The position numbers and the translations under genes were made by a program. From NCBI RefSeq assembly GCF_963678975.1, contig NC_089273.1, forward strand, positions 9,424,614 to 9,488,613: 64,000 nucleotides of DNA. The letters are read 5' to 3'. A model generated the notes under the pieces. It was not told the origin of the DNA. It did not search any database and saw only the letters and a program-made list of their open reading frames with translations. This document shows, one piece after another, positions 2,026-44,535 of the stretch. The stretch is from Dysidea avara (taxonomy: Eukaryota > Porifera > Demospongiae > Dictyoceratida > Dysideidae). Each line of letters starts with the position of its first letter. Positions within the stretch are counted from its first letter, which is position 1.

Positions 2026-2061
2026 GCTAACGGTCTGTCACTATCAAATGCATGAAGTTTA

Positions 2062-2226
2062 GGGAGTTTGTAAAAGACGGAATAAGGAATAGCGGAATAA
2101 CTCGCATCACAACGAATGGGCATTTATATAGCTTATGCAATGTTAGGGTAATTGTACTGTTACAGTTGTGAACTCATCCCTCGTAGATATCTTTACAATG
2201 TAGGGTGATTGCGTGTACTGTTACAG
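2062..2226 (+). repeat. Left terminal inverted repeat of the HIRAN transposon
   Basis: It pairs with 8192-8364 over about 165 bp with few mismatches. The outer part holds CGGAATAAGGAATAGCGGAAT, a run of GGAAT-like pentamers. The inner part carries the string GTACTGTTACAG twice (about 2155 and 2215), each next to an AGGGT(A/G)ATTG block. Repeated subterminal motifs of this kind are usual transposase binding sites; that role is inferred. Confidence 0.85.
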
Positions 2227-2298
2227 CCAGAGGAGGAAGGCAACGGTTTAAGCGCCCTTAAAAATAATCCATTATAATTACATATTTTGCATTCCATC

Positions 2299-3272
2299 AT
2301 GGCGGAAACTGATGCTGACGTCCACTCAGAAGGCGATGAACAACGATGCTATGGTGAAGAGTCTGCTGGTAACCTTTGTGAAACTGAAGAAGTGCACTAT
2401 GAAATTTTAACGATGTTGGCCAGAGGCAATGTCATTAATTATATCGTCCCAAGCTTCCCGATTTTTAACACAGATATCGTCGAAGTGAAGTTGCAATGGG
2501 AGGAAATATGCGAGGATGGTAGCAGCAAGCTCCACGTTTTTGATAGGTTCACTAGATATTGTGAAAATTTGGACCACCCTCTTCCAGCCGCAATGTGTAT
2601 AGAGCAGCGCTACGTCTGTGCATTTATGATTGAAGTGAGTGCAAAAATAAAGTTACACAAAATTTAATTGTTGTATACACACAGGCAACTGAGTTCAGTA
2701 GATCTGTTGATATCACCCCATATAAGTTTTATAATGGCCACGAAGTCTTTGTGTTGTGGAAGTGGACTTGGTTGGATGACACTGTCACGTCAGATTCAGA
2801 TCCATCACTTTCGCCATGCTTGAGCCCCACTGCTGATATTTCATCAAATACAGAGGAAGATGATAGTGTTCCAGAGATAACTCACAGTGTTGTTTTTAAG
2901 TGCATTGGTGTGCACAAAGATATGGAATATCAAGACACACTAGCTCTAGCCAGCAGAAATAAAAATGACGGAAAAACAGTCTCAGTGAAGTTAAAACCAG
3001 AGCCAGATAACCCACATGACACCAATGCCGTAGCATTTATGTGCCAAGCAGATGAAGGTGCAGAATGGAAAAGGATCGGCTATGTGGTTCGAGAAGCAGC
3101 ATCTGAAGTGCTAGGTGTAATAAATGCCAAAAAAATTATCAACGTGAGATTCAGATGGATTAAGTTTTTACCATACTTCAAGAACAGAGGTTGGTATGCT
3201 GGAATAATAATCACAAGGAATGGTGAATGGTCCCGGCAAGTTCTTCGAAGTCGTGCAACTGATTATGATTGA
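2299..3272 (+). CDS. HIRAN-domain protein carried by the transposon
   Basis: Two exons, 2299-2634 and 2685-3272, flank a 50-bp intron with GTGAGT donor and ACACAG acceptor; the join keeps the frame and gives 307 residues. The ATG at 2299 follows non-coding DNA and opens a frame with normal codon use. Residues 1-30 are acidic. Residues about 178-295 match the HIRAN domain, with NPHDTNAV at 221-228 and RIGYV at 242-246, the usual core of this fold. HIRAN domains in Rad5/HLTF bind free 3-prime DNA ends. Here there is no helicase or RING partner in the same protein. The gene faces the transposase gene tail to tail inside shared inverted repeats, so it is probably an accessory transposition factor; this is inference. 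Confidence 0.8.
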
Positions 3273-3313
3273 CTATAATTTATTATTATTGTTTTAATTG
3301 ATTTTGATCACAT

Positions 3314-6300
3314 TTATTTGTTGCAAGCATAAGAATGTTCATATAAAACTGCATTAGATGTCCCAGGTGGTGGTGGAAGACTTAATGGTGCACTATGAAA
3401 CTTCGTGTGAATGGAAGTATTGCCACGCAGTGACATTGTGACTCTACTGGAATTATCTCCAAGCATCTCAAACCGAGGAAGACGTTTTGTTTTCTTGTTA
3501 GCAAGTTTATGACTAAAATCTGGCATCAGTCCCTCATAGTATCTGCATTTTGAAGAAGTATGGTAATAGAATGGCAAGTCGGGATCCATTCTTTTGACAA
3601 ACTCCTCTGTCACTTTTCTCCAACCATAATAAACCTACATTACCAAAAAGATGAGCTATCATATATCTAGATAGAACATTTTCATTTAAGCATACCTCTT
3701 TGAGAGTGAAATCCTTTCCCACAGTGTCACGTAGCATGCTAAAAAAGCATTCTACATCATCGGTAGAGCTAGCTCGAGGGTTTTCAGCAGGAATTCTATT
3801 TCTGGTATTAAACTGTCTTCTCCACTCCCTTGATTCTATGTTAGCTGCTAGAGCTATCAACGTCTCCCTGGTGAAGCCTCTTATGGTGGTGATGTTTCTG
3901 GGTACAATATTTATTTGGATACATAAAACAAATACAGGACTTAAACAAACCGGTTTACTTCCAAACGGCTGAAATCACACTGACCATCTTTATGCCATGG
4001 CATGAGATCATCCAATATATAATCCAAAAACTCTTGGTTGAATGTACTGCGTTGGTCATCAGTCAGTCCTCGTTCATCGCAAGCACGTCTCCAGTTACGA
4101 ACAACTCTGAGATACATAGACTCATTACTGTACCCTTTCTTTTCCATCCACTGTATTAGAGGAAGACCAAATAACCTCTCTACATCTTCCACACTCTGTT
4201 TTCGAACACCAGAGAGTGCACAATAAGTGAGCCCAGCTGTTGTGTCATAAAGTGCTTCTTCAAAGCGCTCCAATTGAAGGTTACATGGTCCACCCTGTCT
4301 GAGACTGGTGCCGATTCGCTAAAAGAGATATCATGATTATACATCCATATTTTCAAATGCATGTACTTTAAAGATGTGTCCTTCATCCTCTCGCTCACAG
4401 AATTCCTCCCCTGTGATAGGATGAACCTCTGGCACGTACAGGTGATCCTTAAAAAGGACCCCTTTAGAATGAAGGAGATTGACAGAGTGTGTATATTCCA
4501 ATTGTGCCAATATGGAACGCAGCTTTTCAGCTTTAGTTTCATCTTTTCCTACACAACTAAGTATCATATAGTGGCTATTTATCTATAGTAACGTACCTTC
4601 TATCCAATTGTGTATCTTGTAACCTGGTGGCACTGTACGCAGTCTTAATCTTTCAATTACATCATCCTCTTCAGCCCCATTTGAATACCACTTCTGAATT
4701 TCAGCTATGAGCACTGGAGATACTGCTTCATAAGGTAGCATTGCAGTAAGAGTCCCATTCTTCCCTTAATAAGAAACAAAAGGACATTGTGGGTATGTGG
4801 ATAAGCAATAAAAACTTTTTGAATATTGCTGTAATACGAGTGACATACACACTTTCAAAGTATTTAATTTAGTGGATTAACAAATTTTACAATTTTGTTT
4901 TTGAAGATCGCTCATTTTTCACTCGGGTTACCTGTTGTAAACCAGAGGCAACCATGATAGTGAATAAATTTTCAAGGCTGAAAAAGCAGTCCAGCAAACC
5001 ATGAAAACAGTATAGTATTTAAAGCTCTATTTGCAATCTCCAGTTACATAAATTTTTTTGTCTTTTGGTACAGGCTATACAAAAATTATTTTAAACCTCC
5101 TTTCCTTCCCTGTGTGCACAATAAACACTTGCATACATACACTGCATACTTACACTGGGGTGTAATCATTGCAAGCATTCTCTTCAGACCCATCCGACTG
5201 AACTTAGACCTTGCTTCAGCACGGATTTGAAAGATAGAAAGGGGTCTTGAATACCCCTTTGCACGTAAGGAGTTCCATTCACCGTCTGTTGTGAATCCTA
5301 TGTAGTAATAAATAACAAACTTATTATAATTTCACAATGTCTACCTGCAACGTGCATCTTTCGCTTGACCATTTCACAAATTATTCTGTTTGTAAGCTCA
5401 CGCACCATTCCATCACCTATTCCCTTGTATGGCAGACACTGAATGGGCAGTGCATATGGTTTTTTCCGCCTATCTTCAGTGCTGATCATAAAAACCAGTA
5501 TGTGAGTAGCAGCAGTGCGTCGATGTCGCGTAACACCTTTAATGAAGTTAACCAGCTTCTGTTTGGACACAGCTAACTGTCTCGGGATGTTCTCCTCTGG
5601 AAGTGCATCTTGCTTGCAAATCTCAGTGATCAAGACATTGATGGTGCGAAAAAGATTTCTTCCAATCTCATTGAGTTCATTTAACTCCTTGACCTTCCAA
5701 GCTAAAGACATCATCTCCTTTTCATTCTGCTTACATAACTGGAGTTTCTCTGTGTACTCGTTATTAGATTTTACTAGTTCTGCAAGTACCTAATGATAAG
5801 TATTTCATTATGCAGCACACACATACCTGTCTGAATAAATTCTAAATCTTCACTTACACTGCTCAACACTGCTCTCAAGCCGTCTGCTGCACTAGCAGAT
5901 AGTTCGTTCACCTTCTGTAAACGCAACTTGTATGATTGATACTGCTTTTGTAGAGCCCCATCACCCAAGTCTACATCCCCACTCCATTGTAACTTAGTGG
6001 TTTCCTTCAGTCCTTTATTAATGTCGCAACCATCAGCTTTCAACCACCACCATGCTCCTGGATTGGACTTGGCTGCTTCATCGAGCACATTTAGCTATGC
6101 ATACACGATACAATAATAACAAAATAAGATACTGGGCTATCTGTACCTGTATCTGAGCATCCAGAGTGATTTCACTAGATGCAAAATCATACCGCAGGGA
6201 CCTTTCTGCTACTGCAGGAACATTAACTAAGGCCTACAATAAATGTGCATACATACAACCAAATAAGGAAATCTATGTATGTGTACCTCCATGGTTTTCT

Positions 6301-7491
6301 GAGTGCGAGAGGCACTGGTACTAGCTTCTTGTGTTGACATGACTGTGCACCACATAGGCCCACGGTGAAGCTTAATCCATTTCTGTCCAAAATGAGCATA
6401 CAGAGTTTGTAGCCACTGACGATAGTCTGTTGGACATGATACCTATATAATGGCTTATGAATTTACAGTATGTAAACATACATGTGATTTACCTGCTGCA
6501 AATTGTCAGCTGCAAAAAACTGTGCAATGTATTCAACAAGTCCTAAAGGCATTCGTTTGATGGGAAGACGTGAGTCACTCTGATCAGGCCGCATTGTGCC
6601 AATACCTTTGGCAAGATTGTACAGTACATTTGTGCGACCACCATCTGATAACCTCAACATTGCACTGGCAGCATTGTTCAAAAAGTCATTAGGAACTATA
6701 AGAGATAACTGGTCACTCAAATAAGCTGAAAACAATATGGAAAGTGCCAACAACCGAGATTCTGCTGGTAATTGATTTAGGGCAAACTCCACTAAGCAAG
6801 ATTCCACTGGGCTGGTTTGTGTTGCAGTTGTATTTAGACCATGACAAACTGTTGAGAGGCTTGGAGCATTTGCTGTTACATTTACAGCCTGTCCATTGTA
6901 CCATGCTTCTGCATCCTTTGGTGTCTTAAATCTATACACGTATATAGAGGAAGTTATATTGAACAACATTAAAGGCGTACCTCTTAGCTAGATGACCTGT
7001 AACTCTCCACCGACAAGCCTCAGCTAAAAGTAAACCATGTATTTATATTATATACCTTTAATTAATGCCATACCACTTCTACGGACTACTGTTGACTCCA
7101 CTCGTTGTTCCACAAATTCACTAGCACTTGTCCAAAAGGCACTCTGCTTATGTGATGGCCACTTATCCCCAGGTGTGTGGAAGAGAACGAACTCAGCCAA
7201 AGCTTTGACTTCTTCTTCACTCCATTTCTCCTTTGAATGGCTAGTAGTGATGTTTTCGTTAAGGTTAATCAATCTTCTTGGAGCCAGATTAAACATTGGT
7301 TGTGGATCCTCTTGCACTCCCTCCTCGTGATTAACCTCGTGGTTTACCAGCTCTCTTAAAGCTACTCTCTTCTCTTGTCTGTGGGGAGTATATAACGTTG
7401 GAGAACCCCTTGGACGTTTGCTAGTTGCAGTCTCGTGGCATAAATCGCTCTCGCGATCCCTCTCTGTTCTCGCGCAATCCTGTTCCGCCAT
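3314..7491 (-). CDS. Putative 13-exon transposase with SANT-like N-terminus
   Basis: Exons read 7491-7074, 7023-6981, 6931-6493, 6442-6287, 6233-6147, 6094-5827, 5779-5345, 5297-5154, 4764-4597, 4548-4367, 4318-3951, 3897-3696 and 3634-3314. All junctions are GT-AG, most introns are 40-70 bp, and the frame closes to about 1076 residues. Residues 86-160 look Myb/SANT-like (tryptophans at 90, 111 and 120). Residues 471-515 are charged and helical. Three acidic motifs could form an RNase H-like triad: STED (D573), FTTDGEW (D620) and STDDVECFF (E952). The last resembles the P-element NQDxLENFF motif. Exon 11's donor (GTTTGT) is weak, so that boundary is less sure. The family is not one I can name. 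Its place inside inverted repeats makes a transposase the simplest reading. Confidence 0.7.
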
Positions 7492-7692
7492 TCAGCGTTG
7501 CTCACGTGAACCTATATCTTTTAAACAATTGATAAAACTAGCATAACGCATGGGGTCGATGGGGGTGATTTCATCAATCGTTTCAATATGTTATAATCTT
7601 ATCGCCTGTAGTATTTTCGGATTTCGTTTACCCTTATTTCAGAAAACAGTGTATTCGTATGGGGCACGTGATAGCGCTGCCGACCTCCTCTG

Positions 7693-8201
7693 TGTTACAG
7701 CTGTGAACTACACTGCTTCGTCACTCATAGATATCCTAGCGAAATGATTACTATACGCTCTTACTACTACTGTATGTAGCTAAGCTAGAATATACAGTAG
7801 TTAGCTATTAGTTTCGTTTTCGAGTCTTCATCCTTCCAGTGGAAGGATGAAACGAAACGACTGTCACGCCCCCTTTGCTCATGACGTTGGTACCATACTT
7901 AACATACAGTACCCGCTTACGAAGTGCAAAATTACATTTGATTATAGCTCTTACTAGCTACTACTGTATGTAAAGTATGGTATCAATGTCGCGAGCAAAA
8001 GGGGGTGTGACAGCCGTTTCGTTTCATCCCTCCACTGGAAGGATGAAGACTTAAAACGAAACTAATAGCTAACTACTGTATATTCTAGCTGTACTAGCGC
8101 AATGATACTTAGCTACATACAGTAGTAGTAAGAGCGTATAGTAATCACTTCGCTAGGACGGCTATGAGCGACGAAGCAGTGTAGTTCACAACTGTAACAG
8201 T
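7693..8201. repeat. Internal 0.5-kb palindrome beside the right end
   Basis: Arms of about 200-230 bp (7693-7905 and about 7970-8201) are inverted copies around a short loop. Each arm ends in GTTACAGCTGTGAACTACAC or a close variant. The outer rim shares the CTGTTACAG motif with the terminal repeats, so the terminus has a chain of the same motif in several orientations. It lies upstream of the transposase start (7491) and may hold its promoter. It could instead be a nested MITE; no target duplication was seen. Confidence 0.75.
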
Positions 8202-8364
8202 ACACGCAATCACCCTACATTGTAAGGATATCTACGAGGGAGGAGTTCACAGCTGTAACAGTACAATCACCCTAACATTACATAAGCCATATAAATGCCC
8301 ATTCGTTGTGATGCGAGTTATTCCGTTATTCCGCTATTCCTTATTCCGCCTTTTACAAACTCCC
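8192..8364 (-). repeat. Right terminal inverted repeat of the HIRAN transposon
   Basis: It is the inverted partner of 2062-2226. It differs mainly by one extra GGAATAAC unit in the pentamer run, which suggests slippage or unequal exchange within that run. Confidence 0.85.
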
Positions 8365-8373
8365 TGAATTTTA

Positions 8374-17804: not shown

Positions 17805-18162
17805 ATGGCTGTTTCAGTCAGTTGCGAACGGCCTTCCTGTTTAACGCATTGCAAAACCCTCCCGCTTAGTCAAGCTGCCTGTCCTTGTAGACACGATAAC
17901 TCACAAAATTTCAAACATCTTTGCCAAAACCAGTTTATTTTATGAACAAACTGAACGAACTTTCTGAGGAATTTTCAGCAATGGCCTGCGGATCAAGTCA
18001 CAATGGGGTTGGCTTTTTTTCACCCCTTCTGGGTATTTGTCCCTTTTCACTTTAGGATATTTAGCTCAAAGATTTTCGCTTAGGCTTCTAGGCTATGGGT
18101 AAACACCTCGAACAGGCTCTGCCTTCTGTGTACACCCTCCAGTGCCTAACTGGTAAAGTAGA
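17805..18162. other. Upstream flank of the small secreted-protein gene
   Basis: No other gene seen. This stretch would hold the promoter of the minus-strand gene that starts at 17804. I could not recognise a specific promoter element. Confidence 0.4.
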
Positions 18163-18789
18163 TCCCATCCAAAAACAGCTTATAGCTGTAAAAAAAGTGC
18201 GCGTCCAAGTAAAGCAGAGTTAACTGCGACAAAAAGTAATGATATCATAATGCGGCCATGTGCGAGGTGTGCAAGTTGTAAAATTAATATTAGCTAATCA
18301 GATAATACAATGTTATTGTTAAAGTGTTAATGAGAACTATGTGATGCTGCTATTTTTAAGTGTGTGAGCATCTTCATAAATGCCACACAAATTTAATTCT
18401 CAATAAAGCAATGTGTATAGATTCTCTGATAGCAATAAATAGTTTGAGTTTGGCCACCTTTCCTTTGTTCGTAGCATTGCCATATACAGGAAAGACGGCC
18501 AAACTCAAACTATTTATTGCTATCAGAGAATCTATACACATTGCTTTATTGAGAATTAAATTTGTGTGGCATTTATGAAGATGCTCACACACTTAAAAAT
18601 AGCAGCATCACATAGTTCTCATTAACACTTTAACAATAACATTGTATTATCTGATTAGCTAATATTAATTTTACAACTTGCACACCTCGCACATGGCCGC
18701 ATTATGATATCATTACTTTTTGTCGCAGTTAACTCTGCTTTACTTGGACGAGCCCTTTTTTACAGCTATAAGCTGTTTTTGGATGGGAT
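18163..18789. mobile_element. Near-perfect 627-bp hairpin MITE
   Basis: Arms of 293 bp (18163-18455 and 18497-18789) are almost identical inverted copies around a 41-bp loop. The only differences I saw are in a short A/G-rich spot near the outer ends. Both ends begin ATCCCATCCAAAAACAGC and then ATAGCTGTAAAAAA. The same end style (TAATCCAAAACAGC...GCTGTAAAAAAA) occurs in the hairpins at 36958-37281 and 54984-55305. No clear target duplication was seen. Confidence 0.9.
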
Positions 18790-23089: not shown

Positions 23090-24034
23090 TTAAATCAAAA
23101 ACTGAGTCTCTGATTGCACCAAGGCCACAGGAGCACTTTTGATGTAACGACCTTGTGAAGATCGTACTCCTCTAATGCATTGGATTGCTGAACGCAGTAA
23201 ACAAAATGACAATCTACATCTAATCCATCCTAGTACTGTGGCATAAGGGTCATTCCATTTGTCAGACAATAAACTCGCCAATCGCTTGTAAAAAACACTG
23301 GCTTCATGGCCCATTCCCCCGGAAGCAGAGAACACTAGAGGGGTAAAAGAACTGTGTTCCACTTCACGGATTCGCAACTCATAAGCTCTCTTCTTTGTTA
23401 TTTCGTGTTTCCTGTAACATAACTGAAGGGTGGTTCCACTGTTGGATGGTGCAAGTGGGTTAAAAACTCTGACGTCCGTATAACATTTTTCATAACGACC
23501 ACCCCAAAATCCATTCATGGCAATGTCCAAGCGTGCGCCATCCTGAGTGTTGGCTGTCTTCTGTTGAAATCTTTCATCACTTAGAGGCTGCAAATGAGGC
23601 TCAACCTCCACATCATGGCACACTTCAGATAACAATTCAGCTGTGATATCCCTCACTTCGTTGTGGCGTATTGAAGGGAATCCACCCTTTGGACAAGATA
23701 GGGCATGATCAACAGAAAAGTTGGTACCACACGCACAGTGGGAAGGTATACGAGAGGGCATCCAGCCATACCTCAAAGCAAGGGCATCTTGAAAGACAGT
23801 CTTGTGTAGGGAGAAACCATGTTCCTGCACAGGTAGGGCAGTAAGCCAGCTAGAAGCACCCTTTTCCTGTGCTAAAGTAACAGCCCTCTGAAGAGTGGGA
23901 GTAAGCTTAGAGAACAGTTCCTTAGAAAGAGTGGACAAATTGATAGTCTTGGATTGTTTAATTTCAAGCTTACGGGAGTACAGACTACAACGAGTATCGG
24001 CAGTATAGCCAAAATTCTGTGATAAAATGAGTGA
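23090..24034 (-). CDS. Retroelement C-terminal part: zinc knuckle and restriction-like nuclease
   Basis: This continues the frame of the reverse transcriptase part after one in-frame TGA at 24035-24037, so the ATG at 23938 need not be a true start. It holds a CACG...H...C knuckle-like motif (about 23690-23750), then RHNEVRD, GARLD and TDVRVFNP, which fit the acidic core of a restriction-like endonuclease of R2-type elements. A basic, conserved-looking tail (RKHEITKKRAYE, LVFSASGGMG, GWIRCRLSF) follows. The nuclease would nick target DNA to prime reverse transcription; the exact family is inferred from order and motifs. Confidence 0.7.
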   Translation of the reverse strand, partial: SLILSQNFGYTADTRCSLYSRKLEIKQSKTINLSTLSKELFSKLTPTLQRAVTLAQEKGASSWLTALPVQEHGFSLHKTVFQDALALRYGWMPSRIPSHCACGTNFSVDHALSCPKGGFPSIRHNEVRDITAELLSEVCHDVEVEPHLQPLSDERFQQKTANTQDGARLDIAMNGFWGGRYEKCYTDVRVFNPLAPSNSGTTLQLCYRKHEITKKRAYELRIREVEHSSFTPLVFSASGGMGHEASVFYKRLASLLSDKWNDPYATVLGWIRCRLSFCLLRSAIQCIRGVRSSQGRYIKSAPVALVQSETQFLI

Positions 24035-25395
24035 TCATAAGGGTGCTGTGACATACATTGAAGCAGAAAACTCAATAGATGATAAAGAATCAGGTGCAAC
24101 AATGCCTAGACCACCAAATCTAGTTGGAAGGGCAAAGAGTGAACGTTGAAGAGCACCAGGAAGGTCAAGGGCAGTCAAGGCTGGAATAAACTTTGTCAAT
24201 AAGGCTTTCTCGAGTGACTGGAAACTAGAAGATGTATCAGGGACTGTACGTGTTACATACAGCCAACGGCTAAATAGTCCATGAGTAAAACATGTATAAG
24301 CAGCATGAGGTTGGGAGATAGCGATGGAGGAGAGTGTATTAACTTCAGAAACCCACTGGCTAATCTTATCAAAAGTAAATCTTTCCACATACTCAGAGGT
24401 GCCAACTGGGGCACCAAGGTGAGGCCTGCCATCAGATGTAACATTTACAGCTGTGTCATGAAACAATTCCTTACCAACAGAGCAAAACTGAGTCTTAGTA
24501 ACAAGCCATGTCTTCTTTGCATTAGGGAAGTAACCAAAGCTAGGGCCCAGTGAGGAAACTTGGTCCCACCACATACGAAGAGCAGAAATTTTACCACAGG
24601 CAGCAGCATCATCTGCATACCACACCTGAGTGACAGGTACAGTGAGTTTCTGAATTAAAGGTACAGTGGCTAGAGCATAAAATGGCATTGCAAGTGGGTC
24701 ACCTTGAGTTGTCCCTTCCTCAGAGTAGAGAACATTACCATCAACAAAGAGGCAAGCAGGGTGTCGGTAAGTATTTATTAGAATGGTGGAAAATGATGGA
24801 CAGAGACGCTGGATGTTGTACAAAGCCACGGCTCTATTAAGAGAGTTGAAAGCATTAGTAGCGTCAATTAGTAGCATACCCTCAGTATCATCATCATTAA
24901 AAGCTTCCCTCATAGCATGAACAGTGGCTTCCCCTCCTGATGGTTGTCCTGCACACAGTTGCAAAGAGCCCGCAGCAAACTGAACATCTTCACCAATCAC
25001 ACACAAAACAGCTTTAGCAATAATACGTCTAACTGTTTCACCAATGCCAATAGGTCGTACACCTGGTCTCTTGTCTAAAGCTATCAGCTGACAAGCCATC
25101 AGGGGGGAAATCATCACAGGATCAACAAACATGGTACACAAACGACGGGCTAATAAAGCGATGACAGAACAAAGTTCATCCGAAGCAGAGCGGAAGGAGG
25201 AACACAGTCTTCGCCAACTGTGAGCATCAATTCCAGAAGGTCCGGCAGCACCTGAAGTTCGTAGGGCAGTAGCTTTTATAGCTGGACCATTCAATGCATC
25301 AAAGATAACAGGATGCACAGGATTTGTAGTAACACTGTCAGGTAGTAAAGCTTCATAATGTAATGGGGCAGCAGCAGGATGTTTTGACTTGAGAA
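24035..25395 (-). CDS. Reverse transcriptase part of the SAND retroelement
   Basis: Open from the MITE edge at 25395 to the TGA at 24035. RT motifs appear in order: GAAGPSGIDAHSW, ALDKRPGVRPIGIG, LLIDATNAFNSLNR, TTQGDPLAMPFYAL and the catalytic WYADDAA (about 24605-24625). The thumb-side RFGGLGI follows. This order and the TQGDP form fit non-LTR retrotransposons. The first Met at 25318 is internal to the domain; the true start is in the SAND part upstream. Confidence 0.85.
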
Positions 25396-25632
25396 CACTG
25401 CTTGAAGTATCTTAGTTTACTACAGTGGTATATCCCCAGTACATGGAACAGTTAATTGTTTGTTATTTTAGTAGTTTTTCAGTAAACCCGCATTCACTGA
25501 TGTTTTACTGAGAGTTTAAAACTTAGTAAAATAATTATGTTCCATATACTTAAGTCTACTGACACTTTACTATCAGTATATCTACAGTAAGGCATCTTAA
25601 CAAATTAGTAAACTAAGAACCTTCAAGCAGTG
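25396..25632. mobile_element. CACTA-type MITE, copy 1, inside the retroelement ORF
   Basis: The 237-bp unit has inverted ends CACTGCTTGAAG with GAA on both sides (25393-25395 and 25633-25635), a 3-bp duplication that fits CACTA/EnSpm. It differs from copy 2 (26155-26390) at about five positions and has the same orientation. Taking out the unit and one GAA restores a continuous retroelement frame. Confidence 0.9.
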
Positions 25633-26154
25633 GAATATCATATACTTTACCAGATCCAGGTATGGTATCATCTAAACGCAGAACTCCTCCTCTCCCACGT
25701 TCAGAGGCTAACAGCTGCATAGCAGCTGCAGTCTTACCTGAGAACATCAATTTAGCAAAGGACTGTGATAATGAATTATTATTAGAAGCACGATTGCTGG
25801 TCTTAAGACGATTTTGAATAGCTCTGCCTTCTAGAATCAGCTCATTTAGATTGCCATCACTCCACAAAAGCATCCGTCGTTCAAGACAAGATATGTGGTC
25901 TTTTGATTTTGAAGTACGTGTTGGCTTCTGAGTCACTAAGGTGCAAAATGTGAAAGCAGCCTTCAAAGCAATGGACTCCAAACTGGATCCTTCCCCAGCT
26001 GAACGAAAGAGTCTGGCCAGCTCCAGCACAAATTTCTTACCAACGTTTCCAGAAGGTATTTTAAAACTGTTGTTTCTCCAGTGAACAACTTCACTACAAC
26101 TTGCTTCAAGCGAATGACAGAAAGTGTCTGAGTCAACAGATCCCCAGTTAAATA
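25633..26154 (-). CDS. Linker part of the SAND retroelement ORF
   Basis: This open stretch between the two MITEs encodes a helical, weakly conserved linker that leads into the RT. Recognisable pieces are FNWGSVD at its start, then VLELARLF and LDDTIPGSGKVYDI near its end. In related retroelements this part precedes the RT domain. It has no catalytic motif that I can name. Confidence 0.65.
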
Positions 26155-26390
26155 CACTGCTTGAAGTATCTTAGTTTACTACAGTGGTATATCCCCAGTA
26201 TATGGAACAGTTAATTGTTTTTTATTTTAGTAGTTTTTCAGTAAACCCGCATTCACTGATGTTTTACTGAGAGTTTAAACTTAGTAAAATAATTATGTTC
26301 CATATACTTAAGTTTACTGACACTTTACTATCAGTATAACTACAGTAAGGCATCTTAACAAATTAGTAAACTAAGAACCTTCAAGCAGTG
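26155..26390. mobile_element. CACTA-type MITE, copy 2, inside the retroelement ORF
   Basis: The 236-bp unit is about 98% identical to copy 1, with ATA on both sides (26152-26154 and 26391-26393). Both copies lie in coding sequence of the same retroelement, 759 bp apart, in the same orientation. Confidence 0.9.
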
Positions 26391-26913
26391 ATACAGGAAT
26401 AGATGAAGGCTCAAAGTCCGGTAGGGAACAGCGTTGGTCTTGAGTAGAACTATCAATGTTATCAGATATTGAAATAGGTAGCGAAGAAACGTCAGTCGAC
26501 TTGATATCAATAGCATTATTTAAGTCCGCTGGTACTGACGCTTGAGTCGTATCGGCTAAAGCACTAGCAGTAGAAGGTGGAGAGTTGGGCTGAGAGTTTG
26601 CGCCAGCTTGCAATTGAACACTTGGAGGGTACGGCACACCAATAAACCGGCAACAACGTTTACCAAAGCAATCCACGAAAGAGTCCAAGTTTCGGGAGAG
26701 GGGTTGATCTTGATAGCGGATAGTATTCTTCCAGTTTTTAGCAGAGGCTTTACCCGCTTCGCGCTGAAACTCACAGGGTGTCAGGGTTCGAGAGCCAAAC
26801 TCGATGCAACGGCTAGACCCACAAGATAAGTCTCTGGTAAGCAACTTCGCTCGCAAAGTTCCACAGACTATATCCACTGTCAAGGCCGAGTTCGAGGTAG
26901 CTTCTGTAGCCAT
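26391..26913 (-). CDS. SAND-domain N-terminal part of the retroelement
   Basis: An ATG at 26913 opens a frame whose residues about 15-75 match the SAND fold: CGTLRAKLL, SSRCIEF, LTPCEFQREAGK and KNWKNTIR are the expected blocks (TPxEF, then aGK, then KxWKxxIR). SAND domains bind DNA in chromatin proteins such as Sp100 and AIRE. A Ser/Thr/Asn-rich segment follows. An upstream in-frame Met (27015) would add 34 residues. Here SAND may help target integration; this is inference. Confidence 0.7.
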
Positions 26914-27015
26914 GCAGGTTACCGTGAAGAAACAAAAGTATGCATTACACGCTAACTGGCCGCGCGACTCACTACCGTGAGTCTTGATAATAATAACAAT
27001 AATATTCGTTACCAC

Positions 27016-27504
27016 GGTAACTTTCGTCGTTAAGTAACATACGTAAACGTTACGTCATGGGCAGTGAGTATTAAATGGAAAAATGAGATTATCTCGTTGC
27101 ATCATCGGTTACATGCTGCCAGCGGGAGACTCTAAGCAAAGTAAGGTTATAAATACTCTAGAGCATTATCTCATCCTGTACTTTTGTAGATCACAATCAT
27201 CCAAAATGTTTAGTTGAGTATATGGATAGTCAAGCCACCGTTCCTCAACTTCTTCCTCTAGTCCAACTCCATTAGTAATCTACTGTGACTAATGCAAAGT
27301 GAGACAAATACTATATTAGTGTTTTGTGATCATGTAGTCGATTTCAGATTACTTTTTGCATGCAATTGAACAATTTGCAATGTGATTGTTCGAACATATG
27401 AGCTAATTGTTTGCAATCTAGCTCCTTTACTTGTACAACTAAATACTAGTACTAGCACAATAAATACTCACCTGTTTACTGTCAAACAATGCCAGGAGTA
27501 TACA
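27016..27504. other. Flank of the SAND retroelement, no gene seen
   Basis: AT-rich non-coding DNA between the retroelement 5-prime side and the 2.45-kb repeat. The 5-prime UTR or promoter of the retroelement may lie in its left part. Confidence 0.4.
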
Positions 27505-29956
27505 TGTAAATACTGCAAGTAGACATTCACATTATCACGTTCGCAAGTCATGTGTGTGAATTGTTCAAAAGAAATCTGAAATCAACTGTACTAGTACTAC
27601 CTGAGTATGTACTGGAGTCTGTCCTGACAGTGTTGTCACAGTGCTTGCTGCAATTTGTAACCACAAACAAAGTAATTAAAATAGTTGCTTATGTTAAGTT
27701 CATCAATTCCAGGGGCGTATCCAGGATATTTCCAAAGTGGCTTCCAGATTTAGCAGTGAGGTACAGAGATCTGGTGCTGTGCTCCCAGCTACTGACAGAT
27801 TTAGAAAGTGCTTCAAATTTACTAGATTTTTGATTTCATGAATAGTAACTATTTCTTGGTTCCTCATGATTTCTGCTGGTCAGGTATATATTGTAGTGAC
27901 CAAATACATTTCCAATTAAAATGATTTAGGTACTTTAAATTTTAACACCCATTTTTAAAATTGTATCCTGTTGTGAATGTTGTATTAGAGTGCTTTTGAC
28001 TGCTCTATTAAAGTACGTCAGACTTTTCTATTAGAGTATCTCGATCTTCTTTAAAGGTTTTTAATACATAGCCTTAATCCACATTTGAGGGCTAATTGTA
28101 AGTTTCCTATTAAACTGTAGCTATACTGCATGTTCATTAACACATTGGAAACTATTAAACTGTGTGCATGCGTGTGTGTACATGCGTGTGTGTATGTGTG
28201 GCTCACTACTGATAGACTGGAGTGCTGCACCAGCATAATGCTAGCATATTAGGTGGATGTTATGAATACTACTGATACTCTCTAATAGAGTAGTCACTGG
28301 AAACTGCAATAGAGCATTGTCCAAAGCTCCTTAGATCGATACTCTCTAATAGAACAGTCACTTTGTAGTCAATTACTCTAATTGAGCATTCACTGATTAA
28401 AAATTTCAAAAGATATAATTGTAAGAAATGTTTGAGCACATTGGGAACACCAAAGAGCATAATAGACAAAAATTTCATGAAAGTGTACCCAGGCCTTGAT
28501 CCAGGTCAGTCCATAAAACGGGTCAGAATTACCTGCTCAGGTGACCCACTGAGCCCAGACAAAATGTGACACAGATGACCTTGTTTCAACCATATTTGTG
28601 CATGCACACATGTGTGTGCATGTGTGTAGTATGTAGAACTGAGCCAATAATTTCCTAAACATTTGTTGATTATGTGTCATACATTGTTCCTAATCAGGGA
28701 CGAAACTACCATTTTAGTGATGCTAGTATACCCAAATGTCCTAATTTGAGAGGTCTAAACAACTACAAATGAAACCAATAATGGTGTCAAGGTACATGTC
28801 CTGCAGCTGATTTCAAGTACTGTATCATCAATTATGGCCCGGGCACTTATTACTTTCAGGCAAGTGTTTACCCTAGCCACAAGACTGGTGACTATAATTT
28901 ACAAGACCAAAAATCATATTCCTTGGGATCAACTTGAAATATTATCTTCTTGATATATTCCACATAGATTAAACGTTTAAAGGAATGTTATAAAATGCTT
29001 TTGTTTCACTGTTTTGTACTAGGAGTTCCTGTGAAACCGGGCATTTGTTTCTGTTGTACAGCTCTATACCATATCTAGCAACTACAGTGTGTATGATATA
29101 ATTATATGGGACTGGCCGTAGTGTACCATTAGGAAAATATGTGTATTATTTTATCATTAAATTTCATGATTTACTTTCTTGTTTGTTTAGCATCAAATTA
29201 TGTTCAGCCAATCTAATAGCACTGAGAGAGGTATGTGGACTATTTCGTATATTTCTTGAATTAAAATGTACATTTTCTTAATCACAGGCATTCTGAGAAA
29301 CTGAAATCAGAGCATTATTATCATCTAGTGACAGTTGGACATTACTTAAATGTTCTCTTCCTTCACAGTTCTTATGCAGCCCCTGGCCCAATATCTTTTA
29401 CGCTCCATAATGTGTTCGTGGTTGGACAAAAGTTGTGATAATGTATGTGCTTATCGTCTGCAAGGCACATGGATGTGTAGACTATAACTGACCGAACATG
29501 TTATATTACAGTACATTGTAAAGCAGTATCACGATGAATTATTTACATACACAAAGTGTGGAACTCTCAAGATGTTCGTAGGTCACCACTAGTTCCCTTT
29601 AGGAATTGTATTTACGAAAGGTATTGCTAGTATACCAAATAGCCCTTGGTCGTTGAAATACAAACACAAATCAAGTACAAGTAACACAAACACTAGTTAT
29701 GCTATAACATTGTGATCACGAGTAATGCTGTTCATTGAATTATGCAATAATATTTCAGTTGAGTTCCTTGCTTGTGAATAGTTTTCACAACTGCTTGACA
29801 CGTAGCTGATGAGTTACAAACTTTAATCAGGCTCTATGTTCAAACTAGTTGGTAGTAACAGGCTGCTCATTGGGATTCATGCCTCATTTACCCTGCAACA
29901 ATTATAAACAGTTCACCCTGCAACACTACTAACAAGTATATACAAGTACACAAATG
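27505..29956 (+). repeat. 2.45-kb dispersed repeat, copy 2
   Basis: It aligns with 11255-13719. The block 29314-29397 is inverted relative to 13063-13152 in copy 1. The right end stops abruptly where half a foldback element (29957-31320) begins. Confidence 0.9.
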
Positions 29957-31320
29957 TTGATTAGTGTTGCTGAAGAAGGTAAAGCCTTTGTTCTGAAATA
30001 AGGCCGAGGTGTTACTTTAAGCAGGGTGTTTGGTGAATGCGCTCAAGTTAGACACTCTCCACCTTATTATGAACTCTTGGTACAACTTCAAAGGAAAATG
30101 AAGAAAACATACAGATGAATCAATAAAATCACTACAGTAAGGTGAATTACAGACTAGTGAGATCTTGGTTAATTAATGACAGTGGTTGGAGATTAAGTGT
30201 GGTAGCTTCTTGCTCTTGAATATGTTGCAAAGTGGAAATACAAATCAAAATGGGATATCAATTTCATTATGAAAAATTTGTATACATAAATAATCTAGCA
30301 TTACTATTTCATTTGTCCTCCACTTAAACATGCTACAACAGTACATTGGCAGTGAGTCTACCTTGAAATCTCAACTCTAGAGTAGATCCAACACAGGACA
30401 GCCCGCACTGTAACAAATACATGTGATCCCATTGTAATTTCATGGACCAGCTGGACTGGGAATCACTTGAAAATAGACGAACAAATTTAACCTGTTTTGT
30501 TTGAAGTGAAGCATGTGAAATGTTACACTTAAGAAATCCTAGGATTCTTAGGTGGTATGTAATTAATGTGAGTGTTCCATTTCAGGTCTGACTAGATACA
30601 TTGAAATTACACACACATCCTGGTCCAAATCACGTTTGCCTGGTGGCTACGGGCATGGTTTCACATGCGGCTTATAATAGAGATTTGGCTGATCTTGGAG
30701 TTTTGGCATTTAGCCTGATTCAAGGCTAGCAGTCAGACACATCCTTGAATTGTGCAACAGATAAAATCAGCTCACTATTGAATACGGCATTAGTCCACTG
30801 CACCAGCTGTTAATATATAAATAACTCCATGCATACACTTCAGTGATGTTTGCAGAATATACCCTCCTTGCGGTCTGCCAAAATATTTGCTCCTCACACA
30901 CTGCACAAAATTCTTCAAGTTTTAATTCAGCTGGCTCTTTCCTGTTACCAGTATCTTCCTGCTTGCTTTATTTATACACTGACTTATGACTTGAAAGACC
31001 GGCCCAGACTGTTTTCTAAAGTCTAAATAAGAAAAACAGCTCACATAAAGTTCCCTTCCGTATGGATGAACATCACTGATACAGCCCATCCCACAATAAT
31101 ACTTCGTTACTAATGACAACCAACAAAAACCCACAATCGATCCGTTAATTCTTTTTATCTTATGTTTAATCACCCACTGGAGATGCCACTGCTAACTTAT
31201 AAGGGAAGTTTCAGCAATGGTAAGTTGCAAGCTTCAATTTTAGAAAGCGTTCCGTTCCGTGGTTTAGTCCATCATTCCGTTCCGTTCCGTTCCGTTCCGT
31301 TCCATAGAATAGTCCCCACC
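29957..31320 (+). mobile_element. Foldback DNA transposon, copy B (one arm only)
   Basis: It matches the right half of the complete copy (48466-50487, without its nested insert) and ends in AGTCCCCACC at 31320 after a TTCCG pentamer run (31275-31303). It starts almost exactly at the fold centre of the element, so one whole arm is missing. The following bases (31321-31329) have no partner on the left, which agrees with truncation. Confidence 0.85.
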
Positions 31321-31446
31321 TATATTTTGTACCATACGCGTATGGTACATACCATATGCGTATACGCGTACGGTACAACCATACGCGTATGGTACGGAAA
31401 ATCGTACCATATGAGTATAGCTAACCTGGTATGCGTATAATATCAA
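31321..31446. repeat. Cluster of GTACGCG palindromes, copy 1
   Basis: The cluster repeats variants of ACCATACGCGTATGGTAC, each an inverted repeat of its neighbour, around a short spacer CGGAAAATCG (31398-31407). The same organisation is found at 35110-35268. The whole block can fold into several hairpins. Confidence 0.85.
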
Positions 31447-35268: not shown

Positions 35269-36775
35269 CCATCATGTAGAGAGTTCAGCTACCAACAAAT
35301 TTCCCTGTAGAAAGATCAGCTAGAAGAAGTAACCTAGTAGAGAGTTCAGTTACAAAGAAACCACCATGTATAGAGTTCAGCTACAAACTAGTGACCTTGT
35401 AGAGACATCAGCTAGTAGAAGTTACCTTGTAGAGAGTTCAGCTACAAACAATTCACCCTGTTCAGAGATCAGTTAGAAGGAGTTTTCTTGTAGAGAGTTC
35501 AGCTACAAACAAATCACCCTGTAGAAAGATCAGCTAGAAGAAGTTACCTTGTGGAGAGTTGGTTGCAAAGAAATCACGATGTAGAGAATTCAGCTACAAA
35601 CTAGTTACCCTATGGAGACATCAGTTATCTTGTAGAAACTTCAGCTACAAAGAAACCATTCTGTAAAGAGCTCAGCTGCAAACAAATCACCTATACAGAA
35701 TTCAGCTTCAAACAAATCACCTTGTAGAGAGATCAGCTAGAAGAAGTTACCTTGTAGATAGTTCAGCTACAAACAAATCACCCTGTGGAGAGATCAGCTA
35801 GAAGAAGTCACCTTGTAGAGAGTTCAGCTACAAAGAAACCACCATGTAGCGAGTTCAGCTGCAAACAAATCACCCTGTAAAAAATTCAGCTACAAAGTAA
35901 TCACCCTGTAGAAAGATCAGCTAGAAGAAGTCACTTTGTAGAGAGTTCAGTTACAAAGAAACCACCATGTAGAGAGTTCAGCTACAAACTAGTGACCTTG
36001 TAGAGACATCAGCTAGTAGAAGTTACCTTGTAGAAAATTCAGCTACAAAGAAACCATTCTGTAAAGAGCTCAGCTGCAAGCAAATCACATATACAGAATC
36101 CAGCTACAAACAAATCACCCTATAGAGAGATCAGCTAGATGAAGTCACTTTGTAGAGAGTTCAGCTACAAAGAAACCACCATGTAGAGAGTTCAGCTACA
36201 AACAAATCACTCTGTAGAGAGATCAGCTAGAAGAAGTTACCTTGTAGAGAGTCAGCTACAAAGAAACCATTCTGTAAAGAGCTCAGCTGCAAACAAATCA
36301 CCTGTACAGAATTCATCTACAAACAAATCACCCTGTAGAGAGATCAGCTAGAAGAAATTACCTTGTAGATAGTTCAGCTACAAGCAGATCACTCTGTAGA
36401 AAGATCAGCTAGAAGAAGTCATCTTGTAGATAGTTCAGCTACAAACAATTCACCCTGTACAGAGTTCAGTTAGAAGAAGTTTCCTTGTAGAGAGTTCAGC
36501 TACAAGCAGATCACTCTGTGGAAAGATCAGCTAGAAGAAGTCACCTTGTAGAGAGTTCAGCTACAAAGAAACCACTATGTAGAGAGTTCAGCTGCAAACA
36601 AATTACCTTGTAGAAAATTCAGCCACAAACAAATCACCCTGTAGAAAGATCAGCTAGAAGAAGTTATCTTGTAGATCGTTCAGCTACAAACAATTCACCC
36701 TGTAGAAAGAGCAGTTAGAAGAAGTCACCTTGTAGAGTGTTCAGTTACAAAGAAACCACCATGGAGAGTTCTGTA
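35269..36775 (+). repeat. Minisatellite array, about 48 units of 30-31 bp
   Basis: The unit is GTAGAGAGTTCAGCTACAAA or GTAGAGAGATCAGCTAGAAG, each with CAAATCACCCT, GAAACCACCAT or AAGTCACCTT after it. The two types often alternate to give a 61-bp higher-order period. TAG and TGA stops occur in every frame, so it is non-coding. The same array occurs at 51690-54785, also followed by a 180-bp tail and a hairpin. Confidence 0.9.
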
Positions 36776-37281: not shown

Positions 37282-38632
37282 ATATATATTACTGATACAT
37301 TATTTGATACAATTTTACAGTTTGGTATAGCTAAATACTCCATTAAAGATATGTCCAGGAAATATCACATTATGCATGTCATGGCTAATTCCATTTGAAA
37401 GTGCACCATGCATGCATGTTTTGAATTCATGACTTCCGTAAAGTAAAGACTTTGTCTGGCATACAGTTTTACTGACATTTCCAGTAGCCGTAGCTAGGCT
37501 TTGTCTGAATAATTTTATAGCTTAGCTATACTGTCTCAGGACACCTATGATATTGTGCATGGAAAGCTATACAAATTCTGTTCAATTTTAAGAGACTATC
37601 ACATATGCTGTACAGCTAATGAGATAATATAGGCACCAGATACAAGAGCTAGCTATTTAAAATAAGCCCACATCCAGCTTCTTGTTAACAGACGACCTCG
37701 TACCAAAACTGACAGCTCTTGGTCTATTGCTTGTGAGCTTCCAAAGTCTCCTCTAGATTCGTTACAAGTCCGGTGTAATAGTTAGGCCCAGAACTAGCCA
37801 GACCATCACTCCACCGGTACATTTCTACGGAGAAACTGAACCCTCACCAAGATTCGCGCCAAAACGGTATTGGGAAGAACGCGCAGTGCTTTAATTTCTA
37901 TGCATTACATCATTTCCGGACTTCAAATCGAGTGAATATAGCGAACCCCTACTAACCATTACGAACGGCGTCACGCAGCTGGTGAAAACCTCAGTAAAGT
38001 AGCTTCACCCGCCTGCCGCGCCCCGCCTAAACTGCCGGATTTCCGTATTGTCAGAGGGGGTTCCAACGCAACCCCCCTGTATCTACCACTGAATACTATA
38101 CCATTATTACCATATGTTGGTTGAAAAGGACATTAGACTATAGTGTTTTCATTGCTGAGTCAGGCAACGTAGCTATTAGCTAATTCGTATGGTGAAGTAG
38201 TAACTCGTGACTTGCCAGCTAATTGGTTCTCGAACAGTGTATTTGGCTGGTAAAACTCTTTAAAGTCGAAGTCAACGTCGATAGTACGCGTCGAGTTCTT
38301 ATATTGACTTTGTATCACTGATTCAGCGCTGAAGCTGTGTACAAGCAACGAGTGACAGTACCTAGGTCCTAATTAATAAGTTCTTACAACAGTGTCTAGC
38401 TAGCTAACAACTCACTATCAAGCAGCTGAGATCACCGCTTTGTGTGAACTAGCTGGCAGAATTGACTACAGTAATTGAAATATCAGCCGCTAGCTCAGCA
38501 CTCACTTGTGGCCTGTAATTACTCGGTTGGAATTCTTCGGGTGTTGCTAATTCAAGTTCTAATTAGGCTACTGTGCTAGCTAACGGTGAACACAGCTAGC
38601 CACCAAGGTAAACATAATCATCAAGTGCACAA
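37282..38632. other. Intergenic DNA left of the BEL/Pao element
   Basis: No complete gene seen. The part at 37760-38100 is richer in GC and CpG (CGCCTGCCGCGCCCCGCC at about 38009-38026), unlike its surroundings, and may be a promoter region or a piece of another repeat. The rest is AT-rich with short frames only. Confidence 0.4.
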
Positions 38633-38837
38633 TGTTGCGGGGCTGACGATAGTAGGTTCGATCGAAGGTGATAACAAGAGCGATAACTAGTGACAATCCC
38701 TTCACGCTACTGAAGCCATAACTATATAGTACACACGTGAGATAATTACAAGAAACGGAAGAATACTAAGGCCTAACCTAGAGTACATAGTACAGTGTTA
38801 TACAAAGTGTATGCATGTTCAAGTTCAGTTCCCAACA
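38633..38837 (-). repeat. BEL/Pao LTR (3-prime copy on the coding strand)
   Basis: 205 bp, TGTTGCGG...CCCAACA. It matches 44536-44740 except at one base. Confidence 0.95.
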
Positions 38838-41800
38838 TCCTCCGGGGGGGCCAAGAGAGAGTCCGCCCACTCTGCAAACTTGCCCATTGCTTTCCTTGCT
38901 GAAGTACGTATTGGGCGAGGGTTAGTAGCTGTATTACTGTCATCTGAGGAGGTAATATCTGGTTGAGCTAATGGTATAGCATGATCGTCAGGGATGTGAG
39001 ATATCTGTTCAGAAGTAATATCACTGGAACTAACTTCAAGGGGGAATAGCTTCACAATTGGTCTATTGGTCTTACCGTTGCTAGTTCTTATATTGGCAGC
39101 TCGAACAAGACCATCACCACCAACAATAAGTTCTTCAACCACAGCAAGTTTCCAGTCCAGCCTTGGCCCTTCATTGTGTATCAGAACAACATCTCCCACC
39201 TTGATCTCTCGTTTGTTGTTTCCTGGCTTCTGATAGTACTCCCTTAAAGAAGTTAGGTACTCACGCTTCCACCGTGTAGCAAAGTGATTTAGCAACAATG
39301 ATTGTACTTTTGCAGCCTTGCTCAGTCTGTTGCTCTCATTGTAGGATGGATCTTGTAAATCCTCCGCCGCCACAAGATGGTGTGGTAATGTAGCCAAACT
39401 TCTTCCATGCAGCAAATGTGAAGGAGTAAGTGGTTGTGGGTCTCTTACATCATCTGAAATATAAGTGAGTGATCTGTTGTTCAATGTTAGTTCTACCTCT
39501 ACCACTATTGTCTGTAGCACTTGCAGGCTCACATGTGCTCTTCCAAGAGTCTTCTTAATGGCAGCCTTGGTTAATCCAATCAGGCGTTCCCAGAAGCCAC
39601 CAAACCATGGAGCCTTCTTTGGTATAAATTGCCAAGTTGTTCCTTGTCTGTTAATGGTTGCGATGACTTCTGAAGTAAAAAGGTTCTTAAGTTCACTTGC
39701 AGCTGCTTCATAAGTTGAAGCGTTGTCAGAGATCATGAGGTGTGGTAGTGATCGACGACCCACAAATCTACGAAAGGCTAACAAAAAGGTCTCAGTTGAC
39801 AAGTCTTCCACAATTTCCAAATGGACTGCTCTACTGGTGGCACAAGTAAATAAGCACAAGTATGCCTTAATTTCTTCACTGCCTCTCTTAACATAGAGTG
39901 CCCCAGTAAAATCTACACCAGTCACTGTGAAAGGTCTAACATCTTGTAGTCGAGATTTGGGTAAAGGAGCAGGATCAGGTGGTTTGTATGGCTTACCACT
40001 GTGTCGACGGCAGATTGTACAACGGTGTAGGATACTCCTTACAAACTGTCTGGCAGTAGGGACCCAGTATGTCTGTCGAAGAGCAGTTACTGTGCTTCCT
40101 AATCCACAGTGACATAGTTTCACATGTATGTCATGAACAATTAATCTTGTGAATGGGTGCTTGGCTGGAAGCAAGTAGGGGAACTTAGCAAGCTGACTGA
40201 TTGGGGCATTGTGGATTCTGCCTCCACAACGGATGAATCCATCTTAGTCCAAGAAAAGTCTTAACTGACGGACAAGTAGAGGTCTCTTCTTCTTAGAGTT
40301 GTGACACTTAAGGCTGTCTTGTTCTAACCAGTACACTTCCTTCTGACAGTCAGCAATCCAAGCCATTCTAGCAGTACGTAGCTCTTCAGCTGAAAGAGTA
40401 CCCTTCTTGAGTGATTGTTGGTGACAACAATTAAAGACAAATCTAAGTACATATGCAGTCACAGCCAAAAGTTTGAACAATGTACTATATTTAGTGACTG
40501 ATATGATGTAGTGCAAACCTGTGTTGGGTGGTTTCAGTCCATCTGCTGGTATGAAGTCATCAACTGTTCCAGCTAGAGCACAGAGGTAGAAAGCCGGTGA
40601 ATGCTCCCACTTTGGCCATTTGTCTTTATGTGGCAGCCATGGTGGTCCGTGTCTCCAGAACTGTGAGGAGGCAAACTGATCAAAGGAGAGTCCACGAGTG
40701 AGTAAGTCAGCAGGGTTGTCATTGGTCGGGCAGTAGTGCCAGGAAGCGGTTGGAACCAGTTGGTGAATCTCCCCAATACGGTGAGCAACAAATGGTGGTA
40801 AATGTTTGGTACTGTGTATCCAGTACATGACAATCTGGCTATCAGTCCAGAGATGAATTGGGATGGATGTCAGCTCAAGTGATGTCATAACAAAGTGGGT
40901 GATTCTTACTCCAATGACGGCAGCCATTAACTCCAGTCTGGGTAATGTGGTGATCTTCAGTGGAGCAACACGGCATTTAGCCATAATAAATGATATACAG
41001 CCTCCTGAATTACAGAATGTAACGGCTCCATATGCTTTTGTACTAGCATCAGTATATGTGTGTAGCTCAACTTGTGTAGGGTCAAAGGTGGTGGAAGTGT
41101 ACCGTCGGTTGATGGAAACAGATGGGAGATTGTGCAGATCTTTCAAAATCTCTTGCCATTCTCTGTTTAGATCGGTCTCCAAGGGTTCATCCCATTCAAC
41201 ATGCATCTGCCATAGTCTTTGCAACAAGAGTTTGGAGCGGATGGTCACAGGCACTGTAAATCCAATTGGATCAAAGGTTTTTGATGATTCTTGCAGCACT
41301 TCTCGCTTGGTTGTAAGGTTAAGGTTTCTAGTTGACAGAGCTGTTCTCTTCGGTATCAGGGATATCTGATCTGTTAAGGTGTTCCAATGCAAGCCGAGAA
41401 CATTAGTAGGAATGTTGGATTCGGCTGTGTTGTGTTGCATAGCAATTGTACAAAGCTGTTGACTATTGGAAGCCCATGCTCTTAGATTGAAACCTGCCTC
41501 TGACAGTATTGTCCTGGCCTCATGGTAGTACTGCACAGCTTCAGCTTCAGTTTTGCCACCTGAAATAACATTATCAACATACAGGTTCTGTTGAATATCT
41601 TGTGATAAGGGAGTGTTGTACTGTTGTAAATTGTGGTACAGTGTGGCATACAAAATAAATGGGGAACTCACGGCTCCAAAGAGTACAGTTCTGAAGCGGT
41701 ACACCTGAAGATCTGAGTGAGGGTCTTTTGGATTGGCTAACCAGAAAAAACGTGTGAAATCTCTGTCTTGCTCGTGGAGATAGATGTGCAAAAAAGCCTT

Positions 41801-44374: not shown

Positions 44375-44535
44375 CTCGATGAATCGTCAGCTTGTCTGAA
44401 AATAGAGTCAACAAAAACAACAGTGTCAATATGGCGGCGTGCTTGCCTCTACGGGTACCGTTTCACACCACGGTACCAGGTTGAAACGCTTGCGATGAAG
44501 ACCAGAAAGGTCTAGAGTGGTCACAGCACCAGAAA

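Follow-up and report, generated by a model that had tools for sequence, protein, structure and literature searches.

In a 64,000-nucleotide stretch of the genome of the demosponge Dysidea avara (RefSeq assembly GCF_963678975.1, contig NC_089273.1, positions 9,424,614 to 9,488,613 of the forward strand), referred to here as the window, positions 2062-8364 are occupied by an apparent DNA transposon in which a gene for a HIRAN-domain protein and a gene for a putative transposase converge. Inverted repeats, a 9-bp duplication that abuts them, two open convergent spliced genes that fill the interior, and a HIRAN domain are all present in the sequence. With a confidence just above even, we suggest that this element is an autonomous two-gene cut-and-paste transposon of a divergent P-like branch and that the HIRAN protein is its probable partner in handling DNA ends. 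Coordinates are those of the window.

Borders of the element

The element spans 6303 bp and has the structure of a class II DNA transposon, with terminal inverted repeats abutting a target-site duplication on both sides. GGGAGTTTGTAAAAG opens both repeats, one on each strand, with the outermost positions at 2062 and 8364; between the left repeat (2062-2226) and the right repeat (8364-8192) 158 of 165 aligned positions are identical, the remainder being seven mismatches, and the alignment has one 8-nt gap. When a 6303-bp span was placed at random in this window, 12 of 200,000 trials gave a pair of 9 bp with no more than one mismatch, and 248 of 200,000 passed a more lenient rule (an exact pair of 6-7 bp, or one of 8-12 bp with a single mismatch at the most).

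Each end carries two exact copies of the 13-mer TGTACTGTTACAG, 61 bp apart and in mirror order between the ends, and we infer that these are candidate transposase-binding sites; with up to two mismatches the 13-mer is found at four further places in the window. The right repeat is split by a foldback of about 500 bp (7693-8199), the arms of which can be aligned with three gaps, one of 19 nt and two of 1 nt. Because similarity to the left repeat resumes beyond the foldback (7675-7692 versus 2228-2245), the original repeat was probably about 184 bp long. In places the foldback resembles the element's own end repeats. A plain nested insertion that made a duplication of its own was considered as its origin and dropped, no direct repeat being visible by eye at its borders. 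The borders and ends are as follows.

2053..2061, unstranded: left target-site duplication TGAAGTTTA, directly abutting the left repeat
2062..2245, plus strand: left terminal inverted repeat; the outer part, 2062-2226, pairs with 8364-8192, and the inner part, 2228-2245, with 7692-7675 on the far side of the foldback
2153..2165, plus strand: subterminal 13-mer TGTACTGTTACAG, left end, copy 1, exact
2214..2226, plus strand: subterminal 13-mer TGTACTGTTACAG, left end, copy 2, exact
7675..7692, minus strand: inner 18 nt of the right terminal inverted repeat, past the foldback; 83% match to 2228-2245
7693..8199, unstranded: foldback, a long imperfect palindrome in the right end, which on its right side overlaps the inverted repeat by 8 nt
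8192..8364, minus strand: outer part of the right terminal inverted repeat, pairing with the left repeat
8192..8204, minus strand: subterminal 13-mer, right end, exact
8253..8265, minus strand: subterminal 13-mer, right end, copy 2, exact
8365..8373, unstranded: right target-site duplication TGAATTTTA, directly abutting the right repeat, one mismatch to the left copy

Two convergent genes

The plus-strand gene has two exons separated by a single 50-nt intron and encodes 307 amino acids; it starts about 54 bp inward of the inner end of the left repeat and is open throughout. On the minus strand, an automatic search for spliced open reading frames returned a product of 1001 amino acids with a score of 63.4, compared with 9.7 for the opposite strand, and in 100 first-order Markov resamplings the best score was 16.9 and the longest product 234 amino acids. 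This model was changed by hand in that two exons were added inside a predicted 398-nt intron and the first donor was shifted by 18 nt. The resulting gene runs from 7491 to 3314 in 13 exons with 12 GT-AG introns and encodes 1076 amino acids. Eleven of the introns are 47-61 nt long and one (4765-5153) has 389 nt and may hide an exon. The stop codons of the two genes lie 41 bp apart.

2299..2634, plus strand: HIRAN-protein gene, exon 1, gene model
2685..3272, plus strand: HIRAN-protein gene, exon 2; contains the entire HIRAN match (residues 211-263)
7074..7491, minus strand: transposase exon 1; most of a weak Myb/SANT-like match
6981..7023, minus strand: transposase exon 2, gene model
6493..6931, minus strand: transposase exon 3, gene model
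6287..6442, minus strand: transposase exon 4, added by hand
6147..6233, minus strand: transposase exon 5, added by hand
5827..6094, minus strand: transposase exon 6; WWWLKADGCD, candidate first catalytic D (D402; alternative D405)
5345..5779, minus strand: transposase exon 7; encodes a large part of the coiled-coil-like insert and the greater part of the PF21787 match
5154..5297, minus strand: transposase exon 8; FTTDGEWN, candidate second D (D620)
4597..4764, minus strand: transposase exon 9, gene model
4367..4548, minus strand: transposase exon 10; DEGH, residues 774-777
3951..4318, minus strand: transposase exon 11; insertion-domain region
3696..3897, minus strand: transposase exon 12; STDDVECFF, candidate catalytic E (E952)
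3314..3634, minus strand: transposase exon 13; stop 41 bp from that of the HIRAN gene

The HIRAN protein

The 307-residue protein matches the Pfam family HIRAN (PF08797) with an E-value of 5.9e-7 and 29.7 bits, above the cut-off of 24.7. An initial annotation of this DNA had described inverted ends, a 9-bp duplication with one mismatch and two convergent spliced genes, one of them for 1076 residues, and had combined these into a DNA transposon that pairs a putative transposase gene with a HIRAN gene; the identity of the ends, the counts for the duplication, the gene scores and the HIRAN match uphold this description.

In the Pfam search no family matched the N-terminal 173 residues, and no helicase, SNF2 or RING family was listed for the whole 307-residue protein, which in this respect is unlike HLTF. 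Pairwise comparison with the HIRAN domain of HLTF gave 12 identities in 49 positions (BLASTP E-value 2e-4), and none of 1000 shuffles scored as high. Both proteins have the Pfam HIRAN match and an NP-[YH]-D-x-NA core; among the residues of HLTF compared, numbered by counting from N90/N91, N91 and D94 are kept in the sponge protein and N90 and Y93 are replaced by D and H, so that the DNA pocket of HLTF is conserved only in part. In the crystal structure of the HLTF domain, Y72 and Y93 flank the cavity that takes up a single-stranded dinucleotide, and fork reversal requires N90/N91 (PMC4666394). Binding of DNA ends by the sponge HIRAN protein is, to judge from its sequence, plausible. A single-sequence structure prediction for HIRAN exon 2 was uninformative (mean pLDDT 36.3). 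In PHROGs the HIRAN sequence matched ten phage families, all of unknown function, five of them with E-values below 1e-3 and the others between 0.01 and 0.14.

The large protein

PF21787, the N-terminal part of a TNP-like RNase H fold, is the only transposase family that Pfam listed for the 1076-residue protein at E-values up to 10. The match has an E-value of 0.0064 with the whole protein, 9.6e-4 with residues 537-640 and 9.4e-5 with a piece that comprises residues 393-640 minus the coiled-coil-like residues 437-536; the latter were recognized as an insert by inspection and by a weak match to Lebercilin. In the same search neither a THAP domain family nor a MULE transposase domain family was listed for the protein, and no family at all was listed for the insertion-domain piece (residues 600-905). 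The HMMER filters discard the majority of matches weaker than about E 0.1, and a family missing from these lists may therefore still be present. Matches to DUF2895 (E 0.013), Lebercilin (E 0.12) and FAM186A-B_C (E 0.089) were judged to be chance or coiled-coil matches, and PDB matches at E-values of 0.81 for the whole transposase and 0.17 and 1.1 for pieces of it were taken as chance. Four pieces searched against NCBIfam gave one match (E 0.14), and in PHROGs the RNase H piece matched phrog_10031 (E 0.0062) and another family (E 0.37), both of unknown function.

The [C/D]xxH motif is a signature of the hAT, P, MuDR, Kolobok and Dada transposases (PMC3706591). Candidate catalytic residues D402 (or D405), D620 and E952 were picked by eye, and DEGH at 774-777 is the only [C/D]xxH between D620 and E952. 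With the first D assigned by eye, the order D, D, DxxH, E agrees with that of P, in which the corresponding residues are D230, D303, D339 (of the D(2)H motif) and E531 in the fly transposase and D304, D374, D414 and E613 in THAP9 (PMC8230255). The intervals in the sponge protein are 218 residues from D402 to D620, 154 from the second D to DxxH and 178 from DxxH to E, the last being close to the length in P.

The support is weaker than for the HIRAN domain, and these features suggest that the protein is a DDE transposase with a P-type RNase H core, an insertion domain after DxxH, a coiled-coil-like insert and a Myb/SANT-like N-terminus. The initial annotation had called it a SANT-like putative transposase. 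The ordered catalytic set and the P-type RNase H match favor the second term, although the match stays below threshold; the first comes down to a weak match of residues 75-175 to Myb_DNA-bind_4 (E 0.013, 16.3 bits versus a cut-off of 27). The profile search proposed there as a check turned up PF21787, but below its cut-off, and no MULE or other transposase family was listed.

Searches for relatives

No second copy of the HIRAN-carrying element was found within the window. Outside it, protein scans of viral contigs confirmed none of 65 pattern stretches for the transposase and none of 7 for HIRAN exon 2, a transposase scan of contigs from prokaryote genomes confirmed none of 15, the exact inverted-repeat pattern had no match in viral contigs, and HIRAN had no match in plasmids. 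Degenerate motif patterns run on the viral and prokaryote collections returned 0, 57 and 6 stretches; all 63 were compared with both proteins by tblastn, with a best E-value of 0.89, and the five alignments displayed were short matches around the motif required by the pattern. One locus among the stretches looked phage-like when its reading frames were inspected by eye. The titles and abstract starts of the searchable literature on HIRAN and transposition mention no eukaryotic transposon with a HIRAN protein, which is weak evidence of absence, as Repbase, Dfam and most subscription journals lie outside this scope.

Other features of the window

A second family with long inverted ends is represented by a complete copy at 47324-50487, which has ends GGTGGGGACTATTCTACGGAACGG... 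and an exact 9-bp duplication, TGTTACGTA, which shrinks to 7 bp when the terminal A/T is assigned to the ends. With a nested insert removed, its longest open frame has 109 amino acids. Partial copies lie at 1-2025, cut by the start of the window and ending 27 bp to the left of the duplication of the HIRAN element, and at about 29946-31321. A relationship of this family to the HIRAN element was considered and rejected: the ends look similar (GGG..., ACGGAA runs), but alignments as good or better were obtained with 28 of 500 shuffles. The nested insert, about 646 bp at about 48683-49328, has inverted ends GTGACTGG...; the copy at 1-2025 represents its uninserted site and is, by eye, consistent with a 4-bp AATT duplication.

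At 38631-44740 lies an apparently young BEL/Pao-type retrotransposon, with 207-bp direct end repeats that are 99.5% identical and long open frames that match Peptidase_A17, DUF1759, RVT_1 and Integrase_H2C2. Adjoining open frames at 23090-27054, one with a sub-threshold RVT_1 match, are accompanied by a 238-bp direct repeat (25395-25632 and 26154-26390, 97.9% identical). A satellite unit of about 31 bp (such as TGTAGAGAGTTCAGCTACAAAGAAATCACCC) forms two arrays at 35275-36768 and 51903-54776, and a 628-bp palindrome at 18162-18789 has a 96% match to its own opposite strand. Scans of the window for Rfam families and for tRNAs returned nothing.

Alternative explanations

Several observations weigh against the explanation of the element as a divergent P-like transposon with a HIRAN partner. 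The PF21787 match is below threshold in every form, its best value being 23.2 bits versus a cut-off of 24.6 and requiring a cut sequence, and the alignment covers profile positions 58-129 of 137, the region of the first D lying outside. In the HIRAN domain the residues at HLTF positions Y93 and N90 are H and D, and the Y72 region has no alignment. Searches of PDB with the HIRAN sequence gave no match, and those with the transposase and its pieces gave nothing relevant. Finally, because there is a single copy, mobility of the element rests on one duplication with a mismatch.

Four other explanations were considered; they overlap, and the likelihoods that we attach to them do not sum to one. The element could be a true but diverged member of the P superfamily in which a Myb/SANT-like domain replaced THAP and HIRAN was a lineage-specific addition. 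The PF21787 match and the DxxH order argue for this, and Galileo likewise has long foldback-like ends (PMC4168063). Considering that neither a THAP match in the whole protein nor any Pfam match in the 600-905 piece was obtained, that the duplication has 9 bp versus 7-8 bp, and that the second D and DxxH are 154 residues apart versus 36 and 40, we regard this as quite possible but short of probable. A Mutator-like (MuDR/MULE) element would account for the long ends and for the 9-bp duplication, which is typical of MULEs including MuDR, and the second long-ended family in the window also has a 9-bp duplication. The convergent two-gene layout is also like that of maize MuDR (PMC3276141). We nevertheless find this identity improbable given that Pfam listed no MULE family at E-values up to 10, whereas it listed the P-type RNase H model.

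Alternatively, a divergent P- or MULE-like transposon might have captured a host HIRAN gene as a passenger with no role in transposition. A host protein that acts in repair contains HIRAN (PMC4666394), MULEs are able to pick up genes of their hosts (PMC9168764) and there is one copy only; on the other hand, the compact layout, with a HIRAN gene that is open, lies about 54 bp from the left repeat and has its stop 41 bp from that of its neighbor, is not that of a gene fragment, and no helicase or RING family is listed for the 307-residue protein, all of which makes a mere passenger unlikely in our judgment. That two host or domesticated genes lie between chance or unrelated inverted repeats would agree with the lack of a second copy in the 64-kb window and in the viral and prokaryote collections, but repeats that are identical at 158 of 165 positions and end exactly at a 9-bp duplication, the mirrored 13-mer pairs and the transposase motifs of the large protein leave this hardly credible.

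Proposed mechanism and implications

For the explanation that we favor, a divergent P-like transposon with a HIRAN partner, we suggest the following scheme: (i) the N-terminal domain of the transposase would bind the repeated 13-mers in the element ends, (ii) the RNase H core would cut and join the ends with a 9-bp stagger, and (iii) the HIRAN protein would capture free 3' ends, or gaps or flaps after excision or insertion, and would either hold the ends in the complex or recruit fork-repair functions. In this it would resemble the exonucleases and helicases that possibly serve certain Kolobok and Dada elements, and perhaps also the product of MuDR's second gene. More far-reaching, and in our view doubtful, is the proposal that the element stands for a superfamily of its own among eukaryotic DNA transposons. 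Such a superfamily would have an RNase H transposase with a Myb/SANT-like domain and a coiled coil, duplications of 9 bp, and a HIRAN subunit dedicated to holding the 3' ends or to linking insertion with the repair of replication forks.

If HIRAN takes part in transposition, the element would encode a DNA-end receptor of a type so far studied in fork-reversal enzymes, and the handling of 3' ends and gaps by a cut-and-paste element would become testable. The element would then also add a two-gene branch with 9-bp duplications beside P, hAT, MuDR, Kolobok and Dada, and would bear on the suggestion that eukaryotic HIRAN originated from bacterial restriction-modification systems and other mobile DNA (PMC2292703).

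Comparison with known transposon groups

The element shares with the P superfamily the order D...D...DxxH...E and, at a sub-threshold level, the PF21787 match. For the GTP-binding insertion domain of P no Pfam family was listed in residues 600-905, but the corresponding length is similar. The interval from DxxH to E (178 residues) is comparable to the 192 of fly P and the 199 of THAP9, but the second D and DxxH are 154 residues apart versus 36 and 40 (PMC8230255), which departs from the P spacing, and the first and second D are 218 residues apart (from D402) versus 73 and 70. Unlike P, the transposase has a coiled-coil-like insert between the first and second D, about 115 extra residues between the second D and DxxH, no THAP match and a weak Myb/SANT-like N-terminus, and it is accompanied by a second gene with HIRAN. 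The duplication at the one insertion has 9 bp, whereas that of P has 8 bp and that of Galileo 7-8 bp. Within the P superfamily the ends of Galileo are long and foldback-like (PMC4168063), and the foldback in the right end of the sponge element may be likened to them.

The two-gene layout, the long inverted repeats and the 9-bp duplication are reminiscent of MuDR and other MULEs; unlike in MuDR, no MULE family is listed for the transposase and the second gene has HIRAN. We know of no HIRAN domain in MURB. Maize MuDR consists of mudrA, for the transposase, and mudrB, for a product of unknown function, and Mu elements have promoters in their inverted repeats, from which the sequence between the repeats may be transcribed convergently (PMC3276141). 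Because the P superfamily fails on THAP, duplication length and spacing and MULEs fail on the transposase domain, the element is filed in neither, and we read it as a divergent P-like member of the C/DxxH group.

Kolobok and Dada also combine a transposase of the C/DxxH group with an additional protein or domain acting on DNA (PMC9587614, PMC3706591). Kolobok has TTAA duplications (PMC9587614), which differ from TGAAGTTTA/TGAATTTTA; Dada has duplications of 6-7 bp and resides in small-RNA genes, and no inverted repeats were found for Dada-U6 (PMC3706591). The accessory functions reported there for these two groups are exonucleases, His-Me nucleases or RecQ helicases and not HIRAN. If HIRAN does act as a partner, it would serve a purpose that in Kolobok and Dada falls to accessory nucleases and helicases.

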